Source: Sphingopyxis sp. JAI128 (GTDB lineage Bacteria > Pseudomonadota > Alphaproteobacteria > Sphingomonadales > Sphingomonadaceae). Taken from it: 64,000 nt of DNA. A model generated the notes under the pieces. That model searched no databases, was not told the origin of the DNA, and was given only the letters and a program-made list of their open reading frames with translations. Within the stretch, counting starts at the first letter, position 1; each line of letters opens with the position of its first letter. Below, in pieces: positions 1-14,262 of the stretch. Position numbers and translations under genes: made by a program. The stretch covers positions 496,001-560,000 of the forward strand of contig NZ_JACHDA010000003.1 in NCBI RefSeq assembly GCF_014207235.1. Reading direction: 5' to 3'.

Positions 1-170
1 TGCCCGCGCGGTTCGAAGCACAGGCTCGTCCGGATCCAGTCAAACCGGTCGAGAAAATCCTGACGCCGCTCACCCATCGACCCGCCACGAACGAGCGGCG
101 CTCCGCCAGCGACCAGCCGGACCGGATTTCCGGCCGTATGGCCGTCGATGCAGAAGAATGTGTGGCGCAT
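1..170 (-). CDS. 4-hydroxyproline 2-epimerase, N-terminal part (cut by window edge)
   Basis: Only the first 56 residues are in the window; the gene continues off the left end. The start MRHTFFCIDGHTAGNPVRLV and the later FDWIRTSLCFEPRG are close to the amino terminus of Brucella-type 4-hydroxyproline epimerases of the proline racemase family. That family converts trans-4-hydroxy-L-proline to cis-4-hydroxy-D-proline. The usual Cys in HTCGNP is Ala here (residue 13). The catalytic cysteines lie further on, outside the window, so activity cannot be judged. The ATG at 170 lies 17 bases downstream of the neighbouring deaminase stop, after a GGGGG stretch, so the two are co-transcribed. A trans-3-hydroxyproline dehydratase of the same family is the alternative. 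Confidence 0.8.
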   Translation of the reverse strand, partial: MRHTFFCIDGHTAGNPVRLVAGGAPLVRGGSMGERRQDFLDRFDWIRTSLCFEPRG

Positions 171-187
171 GGATGTCCCCCGGCAGG

Positions 188-1102
188 TCAGGCCGCCAGT
201 TTGCTCGGCTGCGTCGCCGCGCATTGTTCGACCATCGCGATCACATCCTTGCGGCGCTGGCCGGCGAGCGGTAGACGCGGCAGGCGCACGCGTTCGGAGC
301 CGCGCCCCATGATCGTTTCGGCAAGCTTGATCGACTGGACGAGATCATGTTCGGCGTCGAGGTGGAGCAGGGGCATGAACCAGCGATAGATGGCCCGCGC
401 TTCGTCATATTTCCCCTCGTTAAAGGCCTCGACCAGGCGGACCGATTCGGTCGGGAAAGCGCTCGTCAGCCCCGAAACCCAGCCGCTGGCGCCGAGGAAC
501 AGGCCTTCGAGCGCGACATCGTCGAGCCCGGCCATCATCGTGTAGCGGTCACCGAAGCGGTTGAAGACGTCGGTGAAGCGGCGCGGATCGGGCGCGCTTT
601 CCTTGACTGCGACGATATTGGGCACGTCGCGCAGCGCTTCGAGCGTCGCGAAATCGACGTCGACGCGGTAGGCCGGGGGATTGTTGTAGAGCATGATCGG
701 CAGCGCGGTCGCCTCTGCCACCGCGCGGAAATGCGCCTGCAACTCTTCGGGCGTCGGTACATAGACCATCGCCGGGAGCAGCATGATCGCGTCGGCTCCC
801 AGTTTCTCGGCATCCTTCGCATATTGGACCGCGCGCGCGGTGGTCAATTCGGACACACCGGCAACGATGGGCACGCGGCCCGCGACCGACTCGACCGCGC
901 CCTTCAGCACATTGCGCTTCTCATCGGGTTCGAGCGAATTATTCTCGCCGCAGGTGCCGAGGATGATCAGCCCCGTAACGCCGTCGTCAACGAGCGCGCT
1001 CTGCACGCGCTGGGTTGCATCATAATCGACCGAAAGATCTTCGGCGAATTGGGTGGTAGCTGCGGGATATACGCCTTCCCACAGTGTCCTTATCACGCTC
1101 AT
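188..1102 (-). CDS. DapA-family lyase, likely 1-pyrroline-4-hydroxy-2-carboxylate deaminase
   Basis: This 304-residue protein is a class I Schiff-base aldolase/lyase of the dihydrodipicolinate synthase family. The Schiff-base lysine is probably Lys167 (VAVKES) and the partner tyrosine Tyr139 (MLYNNPP). The GTCGENNSL segment (49-57) is the substrate carboxylate-binding loop. In hydroxyproline catabolism a member of this family removes ammonia and water from pyrroline-4-hydroxy-2-carboxylate to give 2-oxoglutarate semialdehyde. Its position between a hydroxyproline epimerase and a DadA-like dehydrogenase makes that the best assignment; from sequence alone it could be another DapA-like enzyme. 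The ATG at 1102 has a strong GGAGG ribosome binding site 7 bases upstream. Confidence 0.85.
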   Translation of the reverse strand: MSVIRTLWEGVYPAATTQFAEDLSVDYDATQRVQSALVDDGVTGLIILGTCGENNSLEPDEKRNVLKGAVESVAGRVPIVAGVSELTTARAVQYAKDAEKLGADAIMLLPAMVYVPTPEELQAHFRAVAEATALPIMLYNNPPAYRVDVDFATLEALRDVPNIVAVKESAPDPRRFTDVFNRFGDRYTMMAGLDDVALEGLFLGASGWVSGLTSAFPTESVRLVEAFNEGKYDEARAIYRWFMPLLHLDAEHDLVQSIKLAETIMGRGSERVRLPRLPLAGQRRKDVIAMVEQCAATQPSKLAA

Positions 1103-1126
1103 CCATTACCTCCGTTGAAGCTTCGG

Positions 1127-1149
1127 ATCGTATACGGTATATGATACAA
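1127..1149. promoter_or_regulatory. Palindromic AT-rich operator/promoter between divergent hydroxyproline genes
   Basis: The 48-base gap between the deaminase (leftward) and FAD dehydrogenase (rightward) holds GTATAC followed by GTATATGATAC, an AT-rich dyad in a G+C-rich background. A similar CGTATAC-TATATAATATG block lies upstream of the GH127 gene near 4693. Such GTATAC-centred palindromes are typical of GntR-type repressors. The block ends 2 bases before the FAD dehydrogenase ATG and contains a TATGAT -10-like hexamer (1140-1145). The rightward message may therefore be leaderless. No regulator gene is visible in the window. Confidence 0.45.
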
Positions 1150-1150
1150 G

Positions 1151-2425
1151 ATGCCAAATGATTTTCCTTCGCACGCGTCCGATCCGCAAAATGCTGTCAT
1201 TATCGGCGGCGGCGTGATCGGCCTCGCTACCGCCATCGCGCTGCAAAGACGTGAGATCCCCACCATATTGATCGATTCGCCCCCGCTCGCCCCGGCGGCA
1301 TCATGGGGCAATGCCGGCCATATCGCCATCGAACAGATCGAACCGCTCGCGTCGCGCGCAACGATCCGGTCGATGCCGCGACGCCTGTTCTGGCGCGGCG
1401 GCGCGCTGTCGTTGCCGCTGCGGGATATCGCAGCGTGGCTGCCGTTTGCGCTGCGACTGGTCGTAGCGACGCGTCCGGTGCGATTCGCACGCGGCTGCGC
1501 GGCACTGTCCGACGCGATGGGCGATGCGATGGGTGCCTGGCGCCGGATACTCAGCGGAATCGGCGCCGCCGACCTGCTGATCGAGGACGGCCATTATATA
1601 ATGTGGGAAAGCGCGGCGAGCGCGGCGCAGGGTCGCGCCCGCTGGGCCGCCGCGGATACCGGCTGCGCGTCGATGCGCGACGCGACCGCGGACGAACTCG
1701 AACGACTCGCGACGCTGACCTCAGCGCCGGTTGCCGGCGCGGTGCATATCGCGGGGTCGGGGCAGATCGCCGACCTCGATGCGCTCGGCGCCGCGATGCG
1801 CGCGGGCTTCGACGCCGCCGGTGGCATACGAATCGAGGCGCGGATCGACCGGCTGGTGGTCGAGGACGGCCGCGCCATCGCCATCGCCGCCGACGGCGCG
1901 CGCTATGCCGCCGACGCGATGATCGTCGCGGGCGGCGCGGCGTCGGGGCCGCTGCTCGAAATGATCGGGCATCGCGTGCCGATCATCGCCGAACGCGGCT
2001 ATCATATCCAGTCGGCCGAGACCGGCTGGCCGCGCGACATGCCGCCGGTGGTGTTCGAGGACCGGTCGATGATCGTCACCCGCTTCCGTTCAGGGCTGCG
2101 CGCGGCAAGCTTCGTCGAATTCGGCCGCAGCGCGAGCCCCGCCGATCCGCGCAAATGGGCGCGGCTGCGCCGCCATGTCGCCGCGCTCGGCCTGTCCTTC
2201 GCGCTGCCCGGTGCCGAGTGGATGGGCGCGCGGCCGACGCTGCCCGACTATCTTCCCGCGATCGGACAAAGCGGCCGCGCGGCGAACCTCTACTACGCAT
2301 TCGGGCACCAACATCTCGGCCTGACCCTCGCACCGACGACGGGCGATGCCATCGCCGCGCTCGTCGCCGGCGAAGCGCCGCCTTTCGACCTTGCCCCCTT
2401 TGACCTCAACCGTTTCGGAGCCTGA
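1151..2425 (+). CDS. DadA-type FAD oxidoreductase, likely D-hydroxyproline dehydrogenase
   Basis: The 424-residue protein belongs to the D-amino-acid oxidase/DadA family. A Rossmann FAD-binding motif (GGGVIG, residues 19-24) follows a short polar extension. The C-terminal AFGHQHLGLTLAPTTG segment is the second FAD-contact motif of this family. In the hydroxyproline pathway it would oxidise cis-4-hydroxy-D-proline to pyrroline-4-hydroxy-2-carboxylate, the substrate of the divergent DapA-like enzyme. The substrate is inferred from neighbours; other D-amino acids are possible. There is no clear Shine-Dalgarno before the ATG, which directly follows the palindrome, so a leaderless message is likely. 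The M24 peptidase follows after one base. Confidence 0.82.
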   Translation: MPNDFPSHASDPQNAVIIGGGVIGLATAIALQRREIPTILIDSPPLAPAASWGNAGHIAIEQIEPLASRATIRSMPRRLFWRGGALSLPLRDIAAWLPFALRLVVATRPVRFARGCAALSDAMGDAMGAWRRILSGIGAADLLIEDGHYIMWESAASAAQGRARWAAADTGCASMRDATADELERLATLTSAPVAGAVHIAGSGQIADLDALGAAMRAGFDAAGGIRIEARIDRLVVEDGRAIAIAADGARYAADAMIVAGGAASGPLLEMIGHRVPIIAERGYHIQSAETGWPRDMPPVVFEDRSMIVTRFRSGLRAASFVEFGRSASPADPRKWARLRRHVAALGLSFALPGAEWMGARPTLPDYLPAIGQSGRAANLYYAFGHQHLGLTLAPTTGDAIAALVAGEAPPFDLAPFDLNRFGA

Positions 2426-2426
2426 C

Positions 2427-3629
2427 ATGACCAGCGGAATTGGCGGATCAACCGCCGCACAGGAACTTGCCGCCATCGCCCCCTGGGCGGACCGCGCGGC
2501 GCCGATCGCCACCACCGAGCGCGAGGCGCGGATCGAAAAGGCGCGGCGGCTGATGCGCGCGAACCGCGCCGACGCGCTGCTGATCGGCGCGGGGGCGAGC
2601 CTGCGCTATTTCGCCGGCATCCCGTGGGGCGCGAGCGAACGACTCGTCGCGATGCTGCTCCCCATGTGCGGCAAGCCAATCGTCATCGCGCCCGCGTTTG
2701 AACTCGGCACGCTCGAAGCCGACCTCGAGGTCGAGGTCGAGCTGCGCCTGTGGGAAGAGGATGAAAGCCCGTCGGATCTCGTTGTCGGTGCGCTGCGCGA
2801 GATCGGCGCGACGCGGCTCGCGATCGATCCCGCGATGGCGTTCCTCTTCGTCGACCGCATCCGCCGCGCCGGGCCGTCGCTCGACCTTGTCGATGGCAGC
2901 CCGATCGTCGACGGCTGCCGGACGTACAAATCGGCTGCCGAGCTGGCCCTTCTCCAGCAGGCGAAATCGATGACGCTCGAAGTGCATCGACGCGCCGCGC
3001 GCATCCTGACTCCCGGGATTCGCGCGAGCGAGGTCACGCGCTTTCTGGACGAAGCGCACCGCAAGATCGGGGCATCGGGCGGCAACAGCTTCTGCATCGT
3101 CCAGTTCGGCCGCGCGACAGCCTTCCCGCACGGGCTTCCCGGCGATGCGGCGCTGCAGGAAGGCGACGTCGTGCTGATCGATGTCGGCTGCGTCATCGAA
3201 GGCTATCATTCCGATATCACGCGCACCTATGTCTTCGGGGATGCGACCGACGAACAGCGGCGCGTCTGGGCGCTCGAAAAGGAGGCGCAGGCGGCCGCCT
3301 TCGACGCTGCACGCCCCGGCTTGCCGTGCGAGGCGGTCGACGCGGCGGCGCGCGCGGTGCTCGAAGAGGCGGGGTTCGGTCCCGATTACCGCCTGCCCGG
3401 CCTGCCGCACCGCACCGGCCACGGCATCGGCCTGTCGATCCACGAACCAGCCTATCTGGTGCGCGGCGACACGACCCCGCTCGCGCCCGGCATGTGCTTT
3501 TCCAACGAGCCGATGATCGTCATCCCCGACCGCTTCGGTATCCGGCTGGAGGATCATTTCTACATGGCCGAGGATGGCCCGCGCTGGTTCACCGAACCCT
3601 CTACCGCGATCGACCGGCCGTTCGGCTAG
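2427..3629 (+). CDS. M24 family metallopeptidase (Xaa-Pro dipeptidase type)
   Basis: This 400-residue protein has a creatinase-like N-terminal domain (about 30-165) and a pita-bread catalytic domain. All five metal ligands of M24 can be seen: Asp252 (LIDVG), Asp263 (YHSD), His332 (GHGIG), Glu361 (SNEP) and Glu375 (RLED). Such enzymes split dipeptides with a C-terminal proline or hydroxyproline. No signal peptide is seen, so it should be cytoplasmic and could free hydroxyproline from imported peptides for the adjacent catabolic enzymes. The ATG at 2427 follows the FAD dehydrogenase stop by one base with GGAG 7 bases upstream. Its stop overlaps that of the convergent reductase gene. Confidence 0.88.
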   Translation: MTSGIGGSTAAQELAAIAPWADRAAPIATTEREARIEKARRLMRANRADALLIGAGASLRYFAGIPWGASERLVAMLLPMCGKPIVIAPAFELGTLEADLEVEVELRLWEEDESPSDLVVGALREIGATRLAIDPAMAFLFVDRIRRAGPSLDLVDGSPIVDGCRTYKSAAELALLQQAKSMTLEVHRRAARILTPGIRASEVTRFLDEAHRKIGASGGNSFCIVQFGRATAFPHGLPGDAALQEGDVVLIDVGCVIEGYHSDITRTYVFGDATDEQRRVWALEKEAQAAAFDAARPGLPCEAVDAAARAVLEEAGFGPDYRLPGLPHRTGHGIGLSIHEPAYLVRGDTTPLAPGMCFSNEPMIVIPDRFGIRLEDHFYMAEDGPRWFTEPSTAIDRPFG

Positions 3630-4642
3630 CCAAGCAGCGCCTGCACATCCTCATAGAGCCGGCGCGTCACCTGCACGCCGTTCGCGAGGCTGCGCGCGCG
3701 CGCATCGAAACGGCGTAGCGACGGCAGCCGCGCGCCCTGCCCGACGATCGCGTCGAACACCGCCTCGGCGCGTTCGATATGCTGCGCCGCCTCGGCGCCG
3801 AGGAAGCCCGCAGGATCAATCGCGAGAATGAACTCGCCGCCGATCGGCGACGAGCCCGCGCCGTCGTCGAGCGCGATCGACTCGGCGCTGGTGAGGTCGC
3901 CGATCAGCGGGCCCGCGATCAGTTCGACCATCGTCGCGAGCGCCGAACCCTTGTGCCCGCCAAAAGTCAGCATCGCGCCGTCGAGCGCCGCCCTCGCATC
4001 GGTCGTAGGGCGTCCCGCGGCATCGATTCCCCAGCCTTCGGGGATCGGTTTGCCCGCGCGGCGGTGGAGTTCGATCTCGCCGCGCGCGACCGCGCTCGTC
4101 GCGAAATCGAAGACATAGGGATAGGCGCCCGGGCGCGGCCAGCCAAAGGCAATGGGGTTCGTCCCGAACAAGGGCTTGGTGCCCCCGGCGGGGGCGACCC
4201 ACGCATGGCTGGGGGTGCAGGCGAAGGCGACGAGTCCCGCGGCGGCGACCGCCTCGACCTCGGGCCAGAGCGCGGCGAAATGGACGCAATGGTTGATGCC
4301 GAGCGCGGCGATGCCGTTCGTGCGCGCCTTGTCGACCAGCATCGGCAGGCCCCGTGCGAAGGCGGCCTGCGCGAACCCCCCGCCCGCATCGACGCGTAAC
4401 AATGCCGGCGCGATATCGTGGACGACCGGCACGGCGTCCTTCACCACCTTGCCCGTCTTCAGCGTGTTCGCGCAGACAAGCAGACGATAGATGCCGTGGC
4501 TCGCGCACTCGTCGCGTTCGCCGGCTACGATCGTCGCGGTCACCGCCTCGACATGCTGGGGCGCGAGGCCGTGATGCGACAGGATGTCGCGCGACAACGC
4601 CGCCACCTCGTCCAGCGAAAGCCTGATATATTCGTCGTTCAT
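3626..4642 (-). CDS. Ldh2/malate dehydrogenase-family NAD(P) oxidoreductase
   Basis: A 338-residue member of the YlbC/Ldh2 family, which includes malate, ureidoglycolate and delta1-piperideine/pyrroline-2-carboxylate reductases. Typical motifs are GTNPIAFGWP, FDFATS and FGGHKGSAL. In hydroxyproline loci this family often reduces delta1-pyrroline-2-carboxylate (from trans-3-hydroxyproline) to L-proline, and that is the most economical role here, though not proven. The start at 4642 (MNDEYIRLSL) has a GAAAGA upstream; an in-frame ATG at 4678 is the alternative. The gene is convergent with the M24 gene and divergent from GH127, sharing the operator-like palindrome. Confidence 0.8.
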   Translation of the reverse strand: MNDEYIRLSLDEVAALSRDILSHHGLAPQHVEAVTATIVAGERDECASHGIYRLLVCANTLKTGKVVKDAVPVVHDIAPALLRVDAGGGFAQAAFARGLPMLVDKARTNGIAALGINHCVHFAALWPEVEAVAAAGLVAFACTPSHAWVAPAGGTKPLFGTNPIAFGWPRPGAYPYVFDFATSAVARGEIELHRRAGKPIPEGWGIDAAGRPTTDARAALDGAMLTFGGHKGSALATMVELIAGPLIGDLTSAESIALDDGAGSSPIGGEFILAIDPAGFLGAEAAQHIERAEAVFDAIVGQGARLPSLRRFDARARSLANGVQVTRRLYEDVQALLG

Positions 4643-4690
4643 CGATCGTCTTTCGGCAAATTTCCCGTCGGCCTGCATCGCCGCTTGTAA

Positions 4691-4710
4691 TTCGTATACT
4701 ATATAATATG
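4691..4710. promoter_or_regulatory. Second AT-rich operator with consensus -10 box before GH127
   Basis: TTCGTATACTATATAATATG lies between the divergent reductase and GH127 genes. It repeats the CGTATAC core and TATAT half seen at 1130-1144. It includes a perfect TATAAT hexamer (4702-4707) that would start a rightward transcript near 4714, about 30 bases before the GH127 start. A shared repressor acting on both divergent promoters is the simple reading. Confidence 0.45.
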
Positions 4711-4743
4711 CTGGCATCAAGGCGGGCGCAGATTCAGGGGAGC

Positions 4744-7122
4744 ATGATGCATCACAGGCCGATCGATCGCCGTACCCTGCTCGCGGGCACCGCGTCACTG
4801 GCGCTTGTCCCCCTATTCGCGCGTGCCGCGCTGCTCGGAAGGACCGCCTTCGCCCGCGCGGCGCCGCTGCCGCTGTCGGCGGTGCGGCTGCTCGAATCGC
4901 CGTTTCTGGATGCGGTGGAAGCCAATCGCAGCTATCTCCACGCGCTCGAACCCGACCGGCTGCTCCATAATTTCCGAACCAGCGCGGGGCTTGCGCCGAA
5001 GGGCGCGGTCTATGGCGGGTGGGAAAGCGACACGATCGCCGGACACAGTCTCGGCCATTACCTGACCGCGCTGTCGCTGATGTACGCCCAGACGGGCGAT
5101 ACCGAATGCAAGCGCCGCGCCGACTATATCGTGAGCGAACTCGCAGCGGCGCAGGCGGCGCACGGCGACGGCTATGTCGCGGGCTTCACACGCAAGCGTG
5201 GCGATATCGTCGAGGACGGCAAGCTCCTCTTCGCCGAGTTGAAGCGAGGCGACATTCGTTCGATGGGGTTCGACCTCAACGGATGCTGGGTCCCCTTCTA
5301 TAATTGGCATAAATTATTCGCCGGCCTGTTCGATGCCACAACGCTGTGCGGCAATGAAAAGGCACTGCCCGTCGCGGTCGCGCTCGGCGCCTATATCGAC
5401 GATGTGTTCGCCGCGCTGGACGACGATCAGGTCCAGCAGGTGCTCGATTGCGAGCATGGCGGCATCAACGAAAGCTTTGCCGAACTCCACGCGCGCACGA
5501 AAGACCCGCGCTGGCTGCGCCTTGCCGAACGGCTGCGTCATCGCAAAGTGCTGGACCCGCTGAGCGAGGGCCGGGACGCGCTGCCGTGGATCCATGCCAA
5601 TACGCAAATCCCCAAGGTCATCGGGCTCGCGCGGCTGCACGAGCTGACCGGCAAGCCGGGCGATGCCGACGCGGCGCGCTTCTTCTGGGAAACGGTCGTC
5701 CGGGACTATAGCTACGTCATCGGCGGCAATGCCGACCGCGAATATTTCCCCGCGCCGCGAACGATATCGAAACATATCACCGAACAGACGTGCGAGAGTT
5801 GCAACAGCTATAATATGCTCAAGCTCACCCGCCACCTCTATGGCTGGCGGCCCGATGCGCGGATGTTCGATTATTATGAGCGCGCGCATACCAACCACAT
5901 CCTCGCACATCAGGACCCGGCGACGGGCATGTTCGCCTATATGGTGCCGCTGATGTCGGGGTCGGCGCGCGAATTTTCGAAACCCTTCGACGATTTCTGG
6001 TGCTGCGTCGGGTCGGGGATGGAAAGCCATGCCAAACATGGCGATTCGGTGTGGTGGCAGAGCGGCGACACTTTGCTGGTCAATCTCTACATCGCCTCGA
6101 CGGCCGATTGGGCGGAACAGGGCGCCGGGTTCCGGATGGAGACCGCCTACCCCTTCGGCGAGCGGATCGACCTGACACTCGAAACGCTCGATCGCCCGCG
6201 CGATTTCGCACTAGCGCTGCGGATTCCGGGCTGGTGCGAGGGCGCGAGCCTGACGGTGAACGGCACGCCCATGCCGGCGGGCACCCCCGGCGATTATGCG
6301 GTGCTCCGCCGCCGCTGGACAAAGGGCGACCGTGTCGCGCTGACGCTGCCGATGCGGCTGCGCAGCGAAAGCACGAACGACGATGCATCGATCGTCGCGC
6401 TGCTCCACGGCCCGGTCGTGCTCGCCGCCGACCTCGGCCCCGCCGACCAGCCGTTCGAGGGACCCGCGCCCGCGCTCGTCGCCGCCGACCTGCTCGCCGG
6501 CTTCGCACCCGTCGATGCGGCGGCGGGGAAGTTCCGCACCATCGGCATCGCGCGCCCCGCTGACCTGCATTTCGCGCCCTTCTTCCAGCAGCGCGACCGC
6601 CGCACCGCGGTCTATTTCAGAAGTTTCGACGACGCCGGCTGGGCGCGCGAGCAGGTCGCCTTTGCCGCCGAGCAGGCGCGGCAGCGGGACCTCGCGCGCC
6701 GGTCGGTCGACGTGATGAACCTTGGCGAGATGCAGCCCGAGCGCGATCACGGGCTGACCGCGAAAAACAGCTATGCCGTCACCTATCGCGGACGCCACGG
6801 CCGCGACGCGCGCACCTTCGGTTTTTTCGAATATCGCGCAAAGATACGCCCGGGTCCGCTGGTGTTGCAGGCGACCTATTGGGGCGAGGAGCGCAACAAG
6901 CTGTTCGACATCCTGATCGACGGGACAAAAATCGCGACGCAGGCGCTCGACGGCGCGCACCCCGGCGATTTTTTTACCGTCGACTATCCGATCCCTGCCG
7001 ATCTGATCCAGGGCAAGGACAGCGTTCTCGTCCGCTTCCAGCCAGCCAATGACACGACACGCTGCGGCCCCGTCTTCGGCGTCCGCATCTTCACGCCCGC
7101 CTCGGCCGAAACGACGGCGTGA
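4744..7122 (+). CDS. Exported GH127 (DUF1680) beta-L-arabinofuranosidase
   Basis: A 792-residue glycoside hydrolase of the DUF1680/GH127 family. The amino terminus has a twin-arginine-like signal (DRRTLLAG, then a hydrophobic stretch ending near AFARA), so it acts outside the cytoplasm. The zinc/catalytic set of GH127 is visible: Glu351 and Cys353 in CESCNSYN, and Cys420-Cys421 in WCCVGSGMESH, the second pair holding the nucleophilic cysteine. A C-terminal beta-rich domain (about 640-785) follows the barrel. GH127 enzymes remove beta-L-arabinofuranose from hydroxyproline-linked arabino-oligosaccharides of plant extensins, which fits the neighbouring hydroxyproline genes. I chose 4744 because AGGGGAG precedes it; the in-frame ATG at 4708 lies inside the promoter palindrome. 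Confidence 0.9.
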   Translation: MMHHRPIDRRTLLAGTASLALVPLFARAALLGRTAFARAAPLPLSAVRLLESPFLDAVEANRSYLHALEPDRLLHNFRTSAGLAPKGAVYGGWESDTIAGHSLGHYLTALSLMYAQTGDTECKRRADYIVSELAAAQAAHGDGYVAGFTRKRGDIVEDGKLLFAELKRGDIRSMGFDLNGCWVPFYNWHKLFAGLFDATTLCGNEKALPVAVALGAYIDDVFAALDDDQVQQVLDCEHGGINESFAELHARTKDPRWLRLAERLRHRKVLDPLSEGRDALPWIHANTQIPKVIGLARLHELTGKPGDADAARFFWETVVRDYSYVIGGNADREYFPAPRTISKHITEQTCESCNSYNMLKLTRHLYGWRPDARMFDYYERAHTNHILAHQDPATGMFAYMVPLMSGSAREFSKPFDDFWCCVGSGMESHAKHGDSVWWQSGDTLLVNLYIASTADWAEQGAGFRMETAYPFGERIDLTLETLDRPRDFALALRIPGWCEGASLTVNGTPMPAGTPGDYAVLRRRWTKGDRVALTLPMRLRSESTNDDASIVALLHGPVVLAADLGPADQPFEGPAPALVAADLLAGFAPVDAAAGKFRTIGIARPADLHFAPFFQQRDRRTAVYFRSFDDAGWAREQVAFAAEQARQRDLARRSVDVMNLGEMQPERDHGLTAKNSYAVTYRGRHGRDARTFGFFEYRAKIRPGPLVLQATYWGEERNKLFDILIDGTKIATQALDGAHPGDFFTVDYPIPADLIQGKDSVLVRFQPANDTTRCGPVFGVRIFTPASAETTA

Positions 7123-7158
7123 CGCTAGGATATCCGCCAAGAACAAGGGGTCGCAAAA

Positions 7159-8892
7159 ATGAACAGACGCTATCGATTGCTCGTCACGCTCGGGCTGATG
7201 CTCGCCGCCCTCCCGCAGCCCGCCGCCGCCCAGTCGGCCGACGCACAGCTGAAGACGCTCTATGACGCCGAATGGCAGTGGCGCACCAAGGAGCTCGCGC
7301 TCGACCCCGACGGCGAACGCGAGGGCAGCGACCGGATGCCGCGCGTCGATGCCGCGAGTCAGGCGCGCCGTGCCGCCTATTGGACCAAGGCGCTTGCCGA
7401 GCTCAACAAGATCCCCTTCGACCAACTGTCGCCCGAAGAGCGGATCAACGCCGAGGTGTTCAAGACCGCGCTTGAGGAATTTGCCGTCGAACAGACATAT
7501 CGCGAGTTCGAAGATCCCTTTGGTTTCTGGACCTGGATCGCCCCGCGCGGCGGACTGCCGAATGCGCAGGCCTATCGCAATTATATCAAGCGGCTGGGCG
7601 ACATGCCGCGCTATATCGACGAACAGATCGTCAACATGCGCGCCGGCCTGAAGCGCGGCTTCACCAAGCCGCAAGTCTCGCTCGCCGGCCGCGACGCCCC
7701 GATCGCGCCGCTGGCGGAGGCGGACGTCGACAAGAATCCGCTGTTCGTCACCTTCGCGGCGATCCCCGGCAATATCTCCGAAAGCGAACGCGCCGCGCTG
7801 GTTGCCGAGGGCCGCGCTGCGGTCGCCGCCGCGGCGCCCGCCTTTGCCAGGCTGCGCGCCTTCGTGCGCGACGACTATATCCCGAACGCGCGCACCGCGA
7901 TCGCGGGCGAGGCGTTGCCCGACGGCAAGGCCTATTATGCCGCGAAAATCCGCCAATATACGACGCTTGACCTGACTCCCGAGCAGATCCACGCTATCGG
8001 GCTGAAGGAAGTGGCGAGGATCGACGCCGACATGCAGGCGACGATGAAAGAAGCGGGCTGGACGGGGGATTTTGCCGGCTTCCTGCATTTCCTGAAGACC
8101 GATCCGCAGTTCACTGCCAAGACGCCGTACGAACTGATGGCGAAGTCGGCCTATATCGCGAACCGGATCAACGGCCAGCTCAAATTCCTCGTCGGGCGCC
8201 TGCCGCGCTACCGCTTCACGATCCGCCAGACGCCCGACAATATCGCGCCCTTCGCCACGGGGGGCAACGGCGGGCTCGAAAGCTGCCTGATGAACACCTA
8301 CAATCTGCCGGCGCGGCCGCTTTACACGATCCCGCCGCTGACCGCGCACGAATGCGCGCCGGGGCATAGTTTTCAGGCCGCGCTCGCATTGGAGGCGCCC
8401 GACCGGCCGCAGATCCGCCGCACCACCTATTTTTCGGGCTACGGCGAAGGCTGGGGGCTCTACACCGAATGGCTCGGCATCCAGATGGGGATTTACGAGA
8501 CGCCTTACGATGAGTTCGGGCGCGAAACATACGAGATGTGGCGCGCCGCGCGGCTGGTCGTGGACACCGGGCTGCACCACAAAGGTTGGACGCGCCAGCA
8601 GGCGCTCGATTATATGAAGGCGCACACCGCCCTGTCCGATCATGAAATCACGATCGAGGTCGACCGCTACATCAACGATCCGGGGCAGGCGCTCGCCTAC
8701 AAGCTCGGCGAGATGCTGATCCGCCGCAAGCGCGCCGAGGCCGAGGCCAGGCTCGGCGCGAATTTCGACCAGCGCTGGTTCCATGACACGCTGCTCGGGC
8801 TGGGCTCGGTGCCGCTGCCGACGCTCGAACGCGTGCTCGACGAGTGGATCGCGGGCGGTGGCAAGAACCCCTATCCCGAAACCGCGGCCTGA
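7159..8892 (+). CDS. Exported DUF885 family metallopeptidase, copy 1
   Basis: The 577-residue protein starts with a Sec signal peptide (MNRRYRLLVTLGLMLAAL, cleavage after AAAQ) and is therefore periplasmic or secreted. It carries the DUF885 zinc motif HECAPGH (His397, Glu398, His403). Further on is YGEGWGLYTEWLG (Glu430, Glu437), where a third ligand is expected. The substrate of DUF885 enzymes is poorly known, but members are peptidases. The neighbouring gene is a close paralogue, and the pair directly follows GH127 by 36 bases, suggesting one operon. A role in trimming (hydroxy)proline-rich peptides is inference. Confidence 0.85.
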   Translation: MNRRYRLLVTLGLMLAALPQPAAAQSADAQLKTLYDAEWQWRTKELALDPDGEREGSDRMPRVDAASQARRAAYWTKALAELNKIPFDQLSPEERINAEVFKTALEEFAVEQTYREFEDPFGFWTWIAPRGGLPNAQAYRNYIKRLGDMPRYIDEQIVNMRAGLKRGFTKPQVSLAGRDAPIAPLAEADVDKNPLFVTFAAIPGNISESERAALVAEGRAAVAAAAPAFARLRAFVRDDYIPNARTAIAGEALPDGKAYYAAKIRQYTTLDLTPEQIHAIGLKEVARIDADMQATMKEAGWTGDFAGFLHFLKTDPQFTAKTPYELMAKSAYIANRINGQLKFLVGRLPRYRFTIRQTPDNIAPFATGGNGGLESCLMNTYNLPARPLYTIPPLTAHECAPGHSFQAALALEAPDRPQIRRTTYFSGYGEGWGLYTEWLGIQMGIYETPYDEFGRETYEMWRAARLVVDTGLHHKGWTRQQALDYMKAHTALSDHEITIEVDRYINDPGQALAYKLGEMLIRRKRAEAEARLGANFDQRWFHDTLLGLGSVPLPTLERVLDEWIAGGGKNPYPETAA

Positions 8893-8915
8893 TTTTTCCG
8901 ACGAGGAGATAAATA

Positions 8916-10703
8916 TTGCTCACCCGCACGATCCTGCTTTCGAGCCTCGCCCTGCTGCCACTCGCACCCGCGATGGCCGATACCGCGACCGCGGCTGCCC
9001 CTTCGGCCGCAACGGCCCTGCCGGGGAGCGCCGACGCCCGTCTTCGCGAGCTCTACGAGACCGAATGGGCTTGGCGGCAAAAGGAATTCGCGCGGCGTGT
9101 CGGCGACCCGCCCTTCACCGCCTCGGCCGACCATCTGCCGCGCGTCGATGCGGCCACGCAGGCGGCGCGGCAGGCTTATTGGAAAAAGACGCTCGCCGCG
9201 CTCGACGCCATTCCAGTCGACCAGCTTTCCGAAAATGAAAAGATCAACGCTGCGGTCTTCCGCACCAGCCTCGAAGCCTTCGTCGCCGAGGGTCAGTACC
9301 GGACGTGGGAAATGCCCTTCAACGCCGACAGCCAGTTCTGGTCGGGATTGAGCGCGCGCGACACGCTCCCCTCGACCGAGGAATATCAACGCTATCTCGG
9401 CCGGATGCGCGACATCCCGCGCTATTTCGACGAACAGATCGTCAATATGCGCGCGGGCCTCAAGCGCGGCTTCAGCGTGCCGCGCGCCTCGCTCGAAGGA
9501 CGCGACGCGACGATCGCCGCCTATGTCGACACCGATCCGGCGAAAAATCCCTTTTACAGCGCCTTCGCGAAAATGCCCCCGGCGGTCCCCGCCGCCGACC
9601 AGGAACGGCTGCGCGCCGAGGCGCGGCAGCTGATTTCGCAAACCGTCGCGCCCGCTTATGCGAAGCTGCTGACCTTTTTCAAAGACGAATATCTGCCGAA
9701 GGCGCGCACGACGCTGGCGGCCGAAGCGATGCCCGACGGCAAGGCCTTCTATCAGGCGCAGATTCGCGAATATACGACGACCGCGCTGACCGCCGAAGAA
9801 ATCCACCAGATCGGCCTCAAGGAAGTCGCGCGGATCACCGCCGAGATGGAAGAGGTCAAGGACAAGGCGGGCTTCAAGGGCGACCTCGCCGCCTTCATCC
9901 ACTTCCTGCGCACCGATCCGCAATTTTATGCGAAAACGCCCGAAGAACTGCTCGCCTTCTCGGCGCTCGTCGCGAAACGCGCCGACGGCCAGCTCAAATA
10001 TACGATCGGCTTCCTGCCGCGTTACCGTTTCACTATCCTGCCGGTGCCCGACGCGATCGCGCCGACCTACACCTCGGGGCGCGGCGGGCTCGATGCGTGC
10101 CTGATGAACACCTATGACCTGCCCTCGCGCCCGCTGTACCAGATTCCCGCGCTGACGCTCCACGAATGCGTGCCCGGACACAGCTTCCAGGCCGCGGTGG
10201 CGCTCGAGACGACGAAATGGCCGGCCTTCCGCCGCCAGACCTATTTCTCGGGCTATGGTGAGGGCTGGGGACTCTACACCGAATGGCTCGGTACCAAGAT
10301 GGGTATCTATCGCACGCCCTACGAGGATTTCGGGCGGTTGTCGTTCGAGATGTGGCGCGCCTCGCGGCTCGTCGTCGACACCGGCATCCACCATTATGGC
10401 TGGAGCCGCGACAAGGCGATCGACTATCTGGCAAGCCACACCGCGCTCGCGCGGCACGATGTCGAGACCGAGATCGACCGCTATATCAGCTGGCCCGGAC
10501 AGGCGCTCGCCTACAAGCTCGGCGAAATCACGATCCGGCGGCTGCGCGCCGACGCCGAGGCGAAACTCGGGCCGAAATTCGACCAGCGCAAGTTCCACGA
10601 CACTTTCCTCGCTTTGGGGTCGGTGCCATTGCCGGTGCTCGAACAACAGCTCGAAAAATTCATCGCCGATGGCGGCGAAGGGCCCAACGCGGTTGCCCCC
10701 TGA
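8916..10703 (+). CDS. Exported DUF885 family metallopeptidase, copy 2
   Basis: A 595-residue paralogue of the preceding gene, with the same architecture. It has a signal peptide (LLSSLALLPLAPAMA), the zinc motif HECVPGH (His416, Glu417, His422) and the YGEGWGLYTEWLG block. Long stretches align residue for residue, such as the DEQIVNMRAGLKRGF segment present in both, so this is a tandem duplication. The start is a TTG at 8916, chosen because GAGGAGA ends 6 bases before it and it gives an intact signal peptide. The gap to copy 1 is 23 bases. Confidence 0.85.
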   Translation: MLTRTILLSSLALLPLAPAMADTATAAAPSAATALPGSADARLRELYETEWAWRQKEFARRVGDPPFTASADHLPRVDAATQAARQAYWKKTLAALDAIPVDQLSENEKINAAVFRTSLEAFVAEGQYRTWEMPFNADSQFWSGLSARDTLPSTEEYQRYLGRMRDIPRYFDEQIVNMRAGLKRGFSVPRASLEGRDATIAAYVDTDPAKNPFYSAFAKMPPAVPAADQERLRAEARQLISQTVAPAYAKLLTFFKDEYLPKARTTLAAEAMPDGKAFYQAQIREYTTTALTAEEIHQIGLKEVARITAEMEEVKDKAGFKGDLAAFIHFLRTDPQFYAKTPEELLAFSALVAKRADGQLKYTIGFLPRYRFTILPVPDAIAPTYTSGRGGLDACLMNTYDLPSRPLYQIPALTLHECVPGHSFQAAVALETTKWPAFRRQTYFSGYGEGWGLYTEWLGTKMGIYRTPYEDFGRLSFEMWRASRLVVDTGIHHYGWSRDKAIDYLASHTALARHDVETEIDRYISWPGQALAYKLGEITIRRLRADAEAKLGPKFDQRKFHDTFLALGSVPLPVLEQQLEKFIADGGEGPNAVAP

Positions 10704-10782: not shown

Positions 10783-11298
10783 CTATTGATATTCCACCGT
10801 CACGGGAATGCGCCCGCGATAGTCACCGTCGCTGGCGCCGTCGATCTGGAGCCGGCCGCCGAAGCGAAAGACGAGACGGCCGTCAGGGCCGAGCCGCGGC
10901 GCCGCCGACAGGTCGGTCGCGAGCCCGGTCACGCGCGCGGTGCGCCCGTAACCGCCCTCAAGATCGACCGTCGCGGGCAGGATCACCCGCACGTCCGCGC
11001 CCGGCTCGCCCCGCACCGTGACGACGCCGGCCAGCGCGAAACCGCCCAGATCGACGACATCGCCGCGAACCCGGCGCGCGCCCGACATCGGATCGATCTC
11101 GACCTCGCCGCCCATCGCGCCGACCGCCACGCGGCCCATGTCGAGCTGGGTTTCGACGTCGACGCGCAGCGGCACCTCGGCCCTGCGCGCCGCGACCGCG
11201 CCATCCTTGCCCTGCCCGCAGAGCAGGCACTGGGCGGCCGCAACCGGCGCACCGGCACAGGCCAGCATGACCCCAAGGGCAAGACGCAGTTTCACCAC
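10783..11298 (-). CDS. Secreted DUF4402 domain protein
   Basis: A 171-residue protein with a signal peptide (MVKLRLALGVMLACAGAPVAAA) followed by a CLLCGQ pair of cysteines and an all-beta DUF4402-like domain (about 45-170). The GEVEIDP, PGADVRVILP and IPVTVEYQ segments are typical of this domain, which is found in extracellular or pilus-like proteins of unknown function. It is a single leftward gene, divergent from the polyketide operon with an 83-base gap that must hold both promoters. Confidence 0.75.
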   Translation of the reverse strand: MVKLRLALGVMLACAGAPVAAAQCLLCGQGKDGAVAARRAEVPLRVDVETQLDMGRVAVGAMGGEVEIDPMSGARRVRGDVVDLGGFALAGVVTVRGEPGADVRVILPATVDLEGGYGRTARVTGLATDLSAAPRLGPDGRLVFRFGGRLQIDGASDGDYRGRIPVTVEYQ

Positions 11299-11381: not shown

Positions 11382-12458
11382 ATGTGCGCGATGGACACCC
11401 CGCCGGCCCCCCGATTGAACGCCCTCGCCACCGCGGTGCCGGGCCACGACGTCCATCAGGCCTTTATCGACTGGGCAACGCCGCGCATTGCCGACGAACG
11501 GATGCGCGCGATCTTCACCCGCATGGCGGCGCGATCGGGAATCGAGCGTCGCTTTTCGGTTCTGCCCCCGACTGCGGACGGGGGCTCGCCCGTGGCGTCC
11601 GGCGGCTTTTACGACGTCGCCGGCCTGCCACCGACCTCGGCGCGCATGGCCGCCTATGCGCGCCACGCGCCCGAGCTGGCGATGCAGGCGATCACCGCGC
11701 TTGGCGACGCGTTCGATCCGGCGCGCATCACGCATCTTGTCGTCGCGAGCTGCACCGGGTTCGTCGCGCCGGGGATCGACCAGATCATCGCGCGGCGGCT
11801 CGGCCTTTCGGCCACCGTCGAGCGCGTGCTGATCGGCTTCATGGGTTGCTATGCCGGGGTCACTGCTTTGCGCAGCGCGCGGCATATCGTGCGCTCCGAA
11901 CCCCGCGCGGTCGTGCTGGTCGTGAGCGTCGAATTGTCGACCTTGCACCTCAGCCTCGCCGACGCGCCCGAGCCCCTGCTCGCGATGCTCCAGTTCAGCG
12001 ACGGCGCGGCGGCGGGGATCGTATCGGCCGCGCCGCACGGGCTCGAACTCGGCGAGGGGCGGAGCCTCGCGCTGGACGACAGCGCCGAGCTGATCCGCTG
12101 GGACATCGGCGACAAGGGTTTCGAAATGACGCTGTCGGGCGAGGTGCCCCGACGGCTGCGCGAAGCGCTCGGCGTGTCCGGGGTGCAACAGGCGTTGTTC
12201 GGCGATACGCAGGCGCCGCCGCTGCTCGCCGTCCACGCCGGGGGGCGGTCGGTACTCGATGCGGTCGAACATGCGCTGGCCGCCGATCCGCGGGCGCTGG
12301 CCGACAGCCGGTCGGTGCTCGCGCGTTTCGGCAACATGTCGTCGGCGACGATCCTGTTCGTGCTCGCCGAAATGATGGCGCGCGGCGCGCGCGGCGACGG
12401 GATCGCGATCGCCTTCGGCCCCGGCCTCGCCGCCGAAGCGATCCGGTTCCGGGCATGA
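11382..12458 (+). CDS. Type III polyketide synthase
   Basis: The 358-residue protein has the thiolase fold of chalcone synthase-like enzymes. The catalytic triad is clear: Cys124 (ASCTGF), His285 (VHAGGR) and Asn318 (FGNMSSATILF). Bacterial members extend fatty acyl or aryl starters with malonyl-CoA to give alkylresorcinols or alkylpyrones. It is followed with 4-base ATGA overlap by a methyltransferase and then by a flavoprotein. That order matches srsABC of Streptomyces griseus, where the products are methylated phenolic lipids and quinones. The starter unit cannot be read from the sequence. A second ATG at 11391 is an alternative start. Confidence 0.9.
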   Translation: MCAMDTPPAPRLNALATAVPGHDVHQAFIDWATPRIADERMRAIFTRMAARSGIERRFSVLPPTADGGSPVASGGFYDVAGLPPTSARMAAYARHAPELAMQAITALGDAFDPARITHLVVASCTGFVAPGIDQIIARRLGLSATVERVLIGFMGCYAGVTALRSARHIVRSEPRAVVLVVSVELSTLHLSLADAPEPLLAMLQFSDGAAAGIVSAAPHGLELGEGRSLALDDSAELIRWDIGDKGFEMTLSGEVPRRLREALGVSGVQQALFGDTQAPPLLAVHAGGRSVLDAVEHALAADPRALADSRSVLARFGNMSSATILFVLAEMMARGARGDGIAIAFGPGLAAEAIRFRA

Positions 12459-13168
12459 ATCCCTTCGCCAGCCTGCGTGTCCCGATCGCACGCGAAGAGG
12501 AGATGGACGCCGCTGATCTAGCCCCCGAACGCTATGCGAAGGTGCTCGCCGATCTCTCGCGGATCAACGGGCTGACGATGGCGCCGCGCCCGACGCTTGG
12601 CTTCCTCGACCGGGTGCGCAAGCGCGGTGTAGGCGAACGGCCTTGGCGCATCCTCGACGTCGGGTTTGGCGCGGGCGACATGCTCGCGCGGATCGCACGC
12701 TGGGGGGATAAGCGGGGAATCGCGCTCGATCTGGTCGGCGTCGACCTCAATCGCAAGAGCGAGGCGGTGGCAGCGGTGCGGCTCGGCGGGCGGGCGCGGC
12801 TGATCACCGGCGATTATCGCGCGCTCGCGGGACAGGGCTGGGACATCATCCTGTCCAGCCTCGTCACCCATCATATGACGCCCGCGCAGCGTAGCGAGTT
12901 CCTGCACTTCATGGAGCGCGAGGCGGCGCGAGCTTGGCTGGTCAACGACCTGCACCGCCAACGTCTGCCCTTTGCCGGCTATCCGCTGCTCGCGGCATTG
13001 GCGTGGGTCGATCCGATCGTCCGGCGCGACGGGCAATTGTCGGTCGGGCGCAGCTTCCGCCGCAGCGAATGGCGGACGATGCTGGACGAAGTACTGCCCG
13101 AAGCGGCGCCCGGCTGCCGCATCTTTCGCAGTTTTCCCTACCGGCTTTGCGTCGAGCGCATCCGGTGA
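12455..13168 (+). CDS. Class I SAM-dependent methyltransferase of the polyketide operon
   Basis: A 237-residue Rossmann methyltransferase. SAM-binding motif I is ILDVGFGAGDML (about residues 66-77) and the acidic motif II is VGVDLN. The conserved VNDLHRQRLPF segment is typical of methyltransferases found beside type III polyketide synthases. Translational coupling with the synthase (ATGA) and with the next gene (GTGA) indicates a joint pathway. Most likely it O- or C-methylates the resorcinol or pyrone product. The exact position of methylation is unknown. Confidence 0.87.
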   Translation: MNPFASLRVPIAREEEMDAADLAPERYAKVLADLSRINGLTMAPRPTLGFLDRVRKRGVGERPWRILDVGFGAGDMLARIARWGDKRGIALDLVGVDLNRKSEAVAAVRLGGRARLITGDYRALAGQGWDIILSSLVTHHMTPAQRSEFLHFMEREAARAWLVNDLHRQRLPFAGYPLLAALAWVDPIVRRDGQLSVGRSFRRSEWRTMLDEVLPEAAPGCRIFRSFPYRLCVERIR

Positions 13169-14262
13169 ACGACGCGATCGTGGTCGGCGCCGGGCCGGCC
13201 GGGTCGGCGGCAGCGATCGGGCTGACCCGCGCGGGGGCAAGCGCGCTGCTGCTCGAACGCGCGCGCGAAACGGACGACGCGCTGTGCGGCGGTTTCCTGA
13301 GCTGGCAGACGCTGTCGCGGCTCGATGCGCTAGGGATCCACCGCGCTGCGCTCAGCGGGCAGACGGTCCGGCGCGTACGGCTGTTCGCGGGACTGCGGCA
13401 AAGCGAAACGCCGCTGCCGGGCGAAGCGATGGGCGTGTCGCGACGAACGCTCGACGGCGCGTTGCAGGCAGCGGCGATGGCCGCCGGGGCCGGCCTCGAA
13501 CGAGGCGTCCACGCAACTATGCTCGAAAATGGCGCGGTGCAGACGCGCGACGGCGCGATATTGCGGGCACCCGCGATATTCCTCGCCGCGGGCAAGCATG
13601 GCTTTCGCGGCTTTCCACGCGAACCCGACAAATGGCAGCGGACCGACCCTGTTATGGGCCTGCGGCTACGCTTGCCGCCCCACCCGGCGCTCGACCGGCT
13701 CGTCGGCGACGCAGTCGAACTGCACCTGTTCGACCGGGGCTATGCGGGGCTCGTGCAGCAAGAGGGCGGCAGCGGCAATTTATGCCTAGCGGTCCACAAA
13801 TCGCGGCTCGACGAAGCCGGCGGCGATCCGGCTGCGCTGCTCCGCGCGCTGGGCGACGCCCTGCCGCATCTGGGCGACCGCCTTGCGCACGCGGACGGAT
13901 CGCGCGGCGTCGATGCGATCGGCCACGTTCCCTATGGCTGGCGGACGGCCGAGACGGCGCCCGGCCTGTTCCGGCTGGGCGACCAGGCGGGGGTCATCCC
14001 GAGCCTCGCTGGCGAGGGCATGGGGCTCGCCGTCGCGAGCGCAGACGCTGCCGTGGTGGCGTGGCGCGACGGCGGCGGCTCGGCGTCACCGGGCTTTCAG
14101 CGCAGGCTCGCGGCGCGCATGACGCGCCCCTTCGCGCTCGCGAACCTCGTATGGCGGCTCGGCGAAAACCGGCACGGCGCGGGCGCGATGACGGCGGCGG
14201 CGTCACTTTTTCCGTCGTTGGTGCGAATAGTCTCTCGAACGACGCGCATCCGCGGCGGCTGA
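13165..14262 (+). CDS. FAD-dependent oxidoreductase (phenolic-lipid hydroxylase-like)
   Basis: A 365-residue flavoprotein with an N-terminal GAGPAGSAAA dinucleotide motif (residues 8-17) and a LGDQAGVIPSLAGEGMGLA segment (about 272-290) typical of the UbiH/geranylgeranyl-reductase superfamily. As the last gene of the synthase/methyltransferase operon it probably hydroxylates or otherwise oxidises the aromatic product, like SrsC. The GTG start at 13165 overlaps the methyltransferase stop by four bases. An alternative role is reduction of an unsaturated side chain. Confidence 0.82.
   Translation: MNDAIVVGAGPAGSAAAIGLTRAGASALLLERARETDDALCGGFLSWQTLSRLDALGIHRAALSGQTVRRVRLFAGLRQSETPLPGEAMGVSRRTLDGALQAAAMAAGAGLERGVHATMLENGAVQTRDGAILRAPAIFLAAGKHGFRGFPREPDKWQRTDPVMGLRLRLPPHPALDRLVGDAVELHLFDRGYAGLVQQEGGSGNLCLAVHKSRLDEAGGDPAALLRALGDALPHLGDRLAHADGSRGVDAIGHVPYGWRTAETAPGLFRLGDQAGVIPSLAGEGMGLAVASADAAVVAWRDGGGSASPGFQRRLAARMTRPFALANLVWRLGENRHGAGAMTAAASLFPSLVRIVSRTTRIRGG

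Follow-up and report, generated by a model that had tools for sequence, protein, structure and literature searches.

Removal of arabinose from hydroxyproline and catabolism of hydroxyproline itself are both known, from separate systems. Xanthomonas euvesicatoria carries XeHypAA, XeHypBA2 and XeHypBA1 (XCV2728, XCV2729 and XCV2724), which are GH43, GH121 and exported GH146 enzymes, respectively; the available portion of the published account names no hydroxyproline catabolism. The Bifidobacterium longum beta-arabinooligosaccharide system (HypBA2, HypBA1, BauR) addresses hydroxyproline-linked beta-arabinofuranosides of plant glycoproteins and, in the part of its description at hand, uses the sugar, with control by a regulator of the LacI type (PMC5928203). 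For 'Latescibacteria', in silico degradation of hydroxyproline-rich glycoproteins has been proposed, with GH127 acting on extensin alongside enzymes for arabinogalactan proteins (AGPs); the accessible text deals with sugars and general peptidases only, and has no hydroxyproline pathway or joint locus (PMC4454575). On the catabolic side, the excerpts available from a genome-neighbourhood study of the proline racemases lay out a four-step trans-4-hydroxy-L-proline pathway, a Pyr2C reductase of the MLD2 superfamily and peptidase families for a Bacilli cluster, and within those excerpts there is no mention of DUF885, M24, 'arabino' or Sphingomonas (PMC4113996).

Here we describe a locus of Sphingopyxis sp. 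JAI128 in which genes of the same four-step pathway are coupled with those for a glycosidase and for peptidases that look exported. The stretch analyzed (hereafter the window; positions without a contig name refer to it) is the 64,000 nt at C3:496001-560000; the genome measures 4.1 Mb and is split over 15 contigs. The locus extends from left of the window, where an APC permease gene, a GntR/FCD regulator gene and most of an epimerase gene lie, to position 10703. We consider it probable that this is a regulon through which hydroxyproline-rich plant glycoproteins are used as food, joining the two known activities in a conserved unit whose parts have a promoter element in common. Comparable gene sets occur in certain bacteria of soil and plants. 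In contrast to the B. longum system, the apparent target is hydroxyproline and the regulator is of the GntR/FCD type. We found no description of such a joint locus in the portions of the open PMC papers available to us; regulon databases, which may list one, were outside that scope.

The hydroxyproline half begins with the APC amino-acid permease (C3:493041-494474, minus strand) and the GntR/FCD regulator (C3:494517-495164, minus strand), both recognized by family match. A first-pass annotation, written from the window's sequence, had pointed leftward for a transporter and a GntR regulator, and these are the two genes that adjoin the epimerase. The gene for the 4-hydroxyproline 2-epimerase (HypE, minus strand) places its first ~170 bp in the window (1..170) and the remainder at C3:495172-496000. 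Its product scores above the curated 4-hydroxyproline epimerase cut-off (NCBIfam PRK13971, 526 versus 376 bits), keeps the Cys/Cys pair (Cys89 and Cys252) and is the sole proline-racemase-family match in a genome-wide profile search. Beside it lies a DHDPS-family protein (188..1102, minus strand; PF00701, 188 bits), the probable pyrroline-4-hydroxy-2-carboxylate deaminase (HypD), with its Lys in VKES and its Tyr in YNNP; it falls below the NCBIfam DapA cut-off (179 versus 206 bits) and adjoins the epimerase in most linked relatives. A DadA-type FAD oxidoreductase (1151..2425, plus strand; PF01266, the DAO family, 137 bits) is, judging from its position, probably the cis-4-hydroxy-D-proline dehydrogenase. 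The set of epimerase, DapA-type deaminase and DadA-type dehydrogenase named in the first-pass annotation is therefore present, with the epimerase running off the window; the fourth family of the pathway, the aldehyde dehydrogenase, lies elsewhere.

Two further genes of this half were also correctly recognized from the start. The M24 prolidase-type dipeptidase (2427..3629, plus strand; PF00557, 197 bits) has as its nearest solved relative the proline dipeptidase 5cik (522 bits). The Ldh2-family reductase (3626..4678, minus strand; PF02615, 310 bits) is closest to 1wtj, a delta1-piperideine-2-carboxylate (Pip2C) reductase, at 250 bits, the runner-up reaching 116. The 1wtj enzyme accepts pyrroline-2-carboxylate too, and the window's protein is probably a delta1-pyrroline-2-carboxylate reductase.

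The other half comprises the glycosidase (4744..7122, plus strand; PF07944, 416 bits), which has an exported-looking, Tat-like start and a C-terminal DUF6805 domain, and two DUF885 proteins (7159..8892 and 8916..10703, both plus strand). Both DUF885 proteins contain the domain (PF05960, 463 and 517 bits) and the HExxPGH motif and look exported, as first proposed, and we regard them as putative metallopeptidases. Export signals throughout were judged by eye, and the starts of the prolidase (2427), Ldh2 (4678) and glycosidase (4744) genes were chosen by codon statistics.

The glycosidase had been annotated as an exported GH127 enzyme with a full Glu/Cys/Cys-Cys set. The catalytic set stands: Glu363, Cys365, Cys432 and Cys433 (the Zn site and nucleophile set, numbered from position 4708) are kept in 109/109 aligned relatives. 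The family does not. Among solved structures, the protein scores 496 bits against 5opj, which we take to be BT0349 (Bacteroides, GH146), 171 bits against 8k7x, presumably Bll3HypBA1, 94 bits against the GH127 structure 4qjy and 44 bits against 3wkw, presumably HypBA1. We ruled out the GH127 label because of this difference (496 bits to GH146 versus 44-94 bits to the GH127 structures, 3wkw being the lowest); the protein is GH146-like and would be a GH146-type beta-L-arabinofuranosidase. Over its full length, it is 50% identical to a copy in a Xanthomonas-like genome (G575). The correction leaves the extensin-type idea standing, and indeed helps it, because the GH146 enzyme XeHypBA1 cuts arabinofuranose beta-linked to hydroxyproline (Araf-beta-Hyp); in the available parts of the two papers concerned, this activity is given for XeHypBA1 and Bll4HypBA1, both GH146 (PMC10850190), and for XeHypBA1 again (PMC6085000).

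The pairing of glycosidase and hydroxyproline genes extends beyond this genome. We searched a family sample of 149 genomes and a phylum sample of 398 genomes, each including the window's own. In the family sample, the glycosidase was found in 13 genomes (E <= 1e-60) and the epimerase in 17, with both in 11. Nine of these 11 genomes have the two genes within 10 kb of each other (gaps of 3.0-9.2 kb), for which a binomial estimate under random placement, ignoring relatedness, gives ~2e-19. The two exceptions are a draft with the genes on separate contigs (G083) and a genome with only a distant, 43% identical glycosidase (G029). The phylum sample yielded 13 genomes with the glycosidase, 48 with the epimerase and six with both; the genes lie 2.8-12.9 kb apart in four of the six, and glycosidase identity is <= 41% in the remaining two. 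Among 79 named glycosidase loci, HypD or HypE occurs within 10 kb in 39, 33 are unlinked and seven have too little flanking sequence. The linked loci are mostly from Sphingomonadales, plus Caulobacteraceae, Azospirillaceae and Peristeroidobacter (examples are Sphingomonas, Novosphingobium, Sphingopyxis, Sphingobium SYK-6, Pacificimonas, Asticcacaulis, a Caulobacter metagenome-assembled genome, Nitrospirillum, Azospirillum and Peristeroidobacter).

On a quick tree of 109 glycosidases plus BT0349, which has some long branches, all 51 linked rows fall inside one 93-row clade, and BT0349 lies outside the linked clade. The 12 labelled rows outside the clade are all unlinked by the +/-10 kb test; for one of them, L166 (genome G236), the hydroxyproline pathway is divergent and lies at a distance of 14-19 kb. 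For these labels, 12/109 glycosidases with <7.5 kb on one side were left unlabelled and nine family genomes were labelled as linked by hand; the same genomes appear twice in the set as L081/G144 and L082/G099. We also note that the locus in a record titled Bacillus sp. 2B10 (L093) resembles those of Sphingomonas and clusters with them in the tree; the record is probably a mislabelled or contaminated assembly. We considered whether unlinked simply means lacking the pathway, and this proved only partly right: among 28 genomes tested, which represent part of the 46 unlinked rows, 14 have an epimerase ortholog (at least 65% identity) elsewhere, 11 have only a 36-38% relative (10 of them Duganella) and three have none.

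The two halves also share a promoter element. GTATAC occurs twice in the window, once in each of the two short divergent promoter gaps of the cluster: in an operator-like palindrome (1124..1141, core at 1130-1135) within the HypD/DadA gap (1103-1150), and in an operator-like sequence (4688..4705, core at 4694-4699) within the Ldh2/glycosidase gap (4679-4743). Two copies is an ordinary number (1.7 expected from dinucleotides); the placement is what is unusual. We used the 55 of 96 records in which our own gene caller found hydroxyproline genes. GTATAC occurs 107 times in the 29,354 bp that precede cluster genes versus 45 times in 1,300,044 bp elsewhere, a 103-fold enrichment that is the highest of all 64 palindromic hexamers. 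Controls of the same composition gave 2.5-fold (GATATC) and 1.2-fold (CATATG). TATATA (55-fold) and ATATAT (21-fold) were also raised, either from AT-rich promoters or as flanks of the GTATAC motif. The sequence flanking the core gives a ATCGTATACGAT(A)T-like palindrome.

The site is present in 50/55 records, before HypD or DadA in 46/55, and before the glycosidase and also before HypD or DadA in 36/55. By gene, it precedes HypD in 45/52 cases, the glycosidase in 40/47, DadA in 31/42 and DUF5695 in 15/20, with the same site often counted twice for HypD and DadA when these share one gap; the corresponding counts are 0/23 for APC, 0/8 for GH43 and 12/282 for other genes. Before the glycosidase, the core occurs in 44/51 linked loci, a count inflated by relatedness, and in 23/29 after thinning rows to <85% identity; it occurs in 13/14 unlinked loci with an epimerase ortholog elsewhere. 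The longer pattern CGTATACNNTAT was ruled out as a rare genome marker on its own, having four matches genome-wide, two of them in this locus, versus five for the reversed control. Co-regulation of the glycosidase with the hydroxyproline genes, on which the first-pass annotation had hung its proposal, is borne out as far as promoter sequence can speak: the core stands in both gaps, and relatives have it ahead of the same genes. The two halves are thus apparently under joint control, and the GntR/FCD protein may be what binds the palindrome.

The same GTATAC core marks a second locus (C3:447995-459668), ~33 kb left of the permease, which encodes an alpha/beta hydrolase, a DUF4440 protein, two amidohydrolases, a TonB receptor, a third DUF885 protein and an aldehyde dehydrogenase. 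It thereby supplies the TonB receptor and aldehyde dehydrogenase that had been suggested for a search on this side. Sites lie at C3:447917, before the alpha/beta hydrolase, and at C3:451143, between an amidohydrolase and the TonB receptor, after which the second amidohydrolase and the third DUF885 follow. A perfect ATCGTATACGAT (C3:459750-459761) precedes the aldehyde dehydrogenase (C3:458076-459668), ~85 bp from its start. Another GTATAC in the same 46 kb (C3:440533) is inside an unrelated gene. The aldehyde dehydrogenase passes no NCBIfam cut-off; it is 64% identical to the copy in the SYK-6 locus, and another relative, at 62%, is encoded on contig C8, around which the fetched stretch has no GTATAC. 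Six of the seven second-locus proteins, all but the first amidohydrolase, have 61-71% relatives in SYK-6, where both loci share a single 37-kb stretch and GTATAC again precedes the alpha/beta hydrolase. Among the solved structures related to the first amidohydrolase are those of phenylurea hydrolase B, molinate hydrolase, an arginine carboxypeptidase and Xaa-Pro dipeptidases. Because the second locus holds an aldehyde dehydrogenase, the pathway to 2-oxoglutarate looks complete, and an outer-membrane receptor is present. TonB receptors between the two loci (~C3:477.5-483.4 kb) were rejected as parts, since C3:476001-496000 contains no GTATAC.

A counterpart exists in Xanthomonadaceae. The solved prolidase 5cik, presumably from Xanthomonas, matches 30/149 genomes of the family of G236 (E <= 1e-100), and we took the genus with 90-94% identity to it as Xanthomonas by similarity. 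We examined nine of these 30 genomes, two of them (G600 and G693) over 31 and 40 kb. Seven of the nine stretches have a GH146 gene (48-50% identity) near the epimerase, deaminase, aldehyde dehydrogenase and prolidase, spanning 19-43 kb end to end: G575, G621, G673 and G695 from the Xanthomonas-like genus, and G689, G236 and G586 from other genera. GH43 is also present in G575, G621, G673 and G689, and is not shown in G236, G586 or G695. In G575, the row of genes on one strand closes with that for a 1467-aa protein, which aligns to most of the HypBA2 model (1064 bits, under the 3200 cut-off), and immediately behind it GH43, whose start we picked to fit the published 528 aa; this is the gene order described for XCV2729 and XCV2728. 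Unlike the X. euvesicatoria system, the window locus has neither the GH43 HypAA nor the GH121 HypBA2 among its genes. G575 in turn has another type of epimerase, best matched by PRK13970 (417 bits, just under the 442 cut-off), and a DAO + Pyr_redox pair. The palindrome was ruled out as a mark of the Xanthomonas-like loci, with 0-2 GTATAC per 40-60 kb in the seven stretches. This difference in epimerase type, together with the lack of the palindrome, suggests that the same partners were joined twice, the Xanthomonadaceae version having been assembled separately.

We hypothesize that the system works as follows. Outside the cytoplasm, the GH146 enzyme would remove arabinofuranose attached directly to hydroxyproline, and the DUF885 peptidases, perhaps with the second-locus amidohydrolases, would cut the bared peptide, pieces of which the second-locus TonB receptor may import. 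The APC permease would import amino acids, and in the cytoplasm the prolidase would release proline or hydroxyproline from dipeptides. The epimerase would convert trans-4-hydroxy-L-proline to cis-4-hydroxy-D-proline, the DadA-type enzyme would oxidize the latter, HypD would deaminate the oxidized compound to 2-oxoglutarate semialdehyde, from which the second-locus aldehyde dehydrogenase would form 2-oxoglutarate. The Ldh2 reductase may rescue proline drained off by the epimerase and the DadA-type enzyme. The GntR/FCD protein would switch both loci through the ATCGTATACGAT-like palindrome.

Several observations weigh against this regulon. Such a glycosidase is missing from six of the 17 family genomes that carry the epimerase, two family genomes encode the glycosidase but not this epimerase, and neither gene occurs in the two other sampled genomes of the same genus. 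In 14 Duganella loci, no hydroxyproline genes accompany the glycosidase within the flanks retrieved, and the core precedes the glycosidase in 0/13 of them (one of the 14 rows has no upstream sequence). Because the Duganella loci are without both the hydroxyproline genes and the core, the glycosidase evidently also has a life elsewhere; with 0/13 there and 0/15 outside the clade, we ruled out that the palindrome accompanies every GH146. Conversely, the core does stand before the glycosidase in 4/4 non-Duganella loci without a close epimerase ortholog, a group that includes L147 with its 38% epimerase relative. In Xanthomonadaceae, GH146 was not seen in the 31 kb of G600, which has a distant GH127-family match, or in the 40 kb of G693. 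As a side observation, the Duganella glycosidases are close relatives (~60% identity), and the ten Duganella genomes searched hold only a 36-38% epimerase relative.

A further difficulty concerns the outer arabinoses, for which we found no dedicated enzyme in this locus. The locus has no GH43; the two GH43 copies of the genome are on contig C1 and were rejected as parts, there being no GTATAC in C1:436001-472000 (36 kb). DUF5695 was not found in the window genome, in a search whose positive control also gave no match. GH121 is not among the locus genes, no genome-wide GH121 search having been made. Removal of the outer arabinoses is left unexplained because the locus is without GH43 and DUF5695 was not found; the bacterium may feed on glycoprotein that has already been trimmed in part, or other enzymes may carry out this step.

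Loci of relatives add GH43, GH27, GH2, GH127, an S9 peptidase, gamma-glutamyltranspeptidase and DUF5695. In several of them (L081:12407-14179, and L075, L076, L077 and L041), the gamma-glutamyltranspeptidase gene separates the glycosidase from DUF885; it is not in the window. By clustering, DUF5695 occurs near the glycosidase in 34/96 records (for example L131:7137-9881, with 34 relatives). A model of the family (31 of 35 proteins aligned, mean pLDDT 85) resembles the lyase BACCELL_00875 with a TM score of 0.80 on the target at 14% identity, and a profile comparison of the two gives 42 bits. We had considered DUF5695 as a GH121-like arabinobiosidase, and the fold test instead gave a PL27 lyase as best match. 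BACCELL_00875 belongs to PL27 and, according to the accessible part of its description, removes rhamnose from gum arabic (PMC8377490). The predicted fold leaves room for AGPs as targets.

The first-pass annotation had read the locus as one for extensin use. Its link between the glycosidase and the hydroxyproline genes stands, by conserved linkage and the palindrome; extensin as the substrate is not separated from other hydroxyproline-rich glycoproteins. The targets could accordingly be AGPs or other such glycoproteins rather than extensins, with the glycosidase trimming beta-linked arabinofuranose, as the lyase-like DUF5695 of the relatives would suggest; the GH146 enzyme Bll3HypBA1 also acts on rice AGP, in the available text of that study (PMC10850190). 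We think this unlikely, given that the search of the window genome did not find DUF5695, that the Xanthomonas-like loci carry extensin-type GH121-like and GH43 enzymes, and that none of the locus genes was seen to encode a galactan-degrading enzyme.

It is less likely still that the locus is a general cluster for hydroxyproline or collagen peptides in which the glycosidase is a passenger. The catabolic half is of a known kind, in the parts of that study at hand (PMC4113996), and in the five that were fetched (L059-L062 and L064) of the six family genomes with an epimerase and no glycosidase, HypD and prolidase accompany the epimerase. Linkage held across several orders, the shared core upstream of the glycosidase and a second assembly around another epimerase type in Xanthomonas-like genomes all speak against a passenger. 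Action on pectic arabinan, in a locus serving pectin-rich debris generally, has the best solved match (5opj), the arabinan-derived substrates described for BT0349 and that enzyme's active-site Trp (both from the available part of PMC10850190; by our reading of the alignment the residue appears kept as Trp194, in 106/109 rows) in its favor, but we consider it very improbable, as BT0349 lies outside the linked clade, no pectinase or arabinanase is among the window-locus genes, and the glycosidase is coupled to hydroxyproline genes.

Beyond the locus, a small DUF4402 protein (10783-11268, minus strand) is encoded directly after the second DUF885 gene. The adjoining 11382-14262 contains, in a row, a type III polyketide synthase of the chalcone/stilbene synthase family, a methyltransferase and an FAD-dependent oxidoreductase, without GTATAC.

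Returning to the regulon for hydroxyproline-rich glycoproteins, our confidence is evenly balanced on its fullest form: that the protein backbone is what is eaten, with arabinose removal as the tin-opener; that this is served by a palindrome-marked regulon in Sphingomonadales, Caulobacterales and Azospirillaceae, with a separate version in Xanthomonadaceae; and that DUF5695 is a new PL27-related family acting on these glycans. In the text available to us, Nakamura et al. asked why X. euvesicatoria, unable to use L-arabinose, has its arabinose-removing enzymes (PMC6085000). The present findings make this puzzle testable: if the regulon is real, hydroxyproline use would answer it, and may explain why some bacteria keep such enzymes. 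With the palindrome as a DNA marker, the remaining members of the regulon can be sought, and the loci provide a substrate guess for DUF885 and DUF5695. More broadly, they give a possible view of how plant-associated bacteria may gain carbon and nitrogen from wall proteins.

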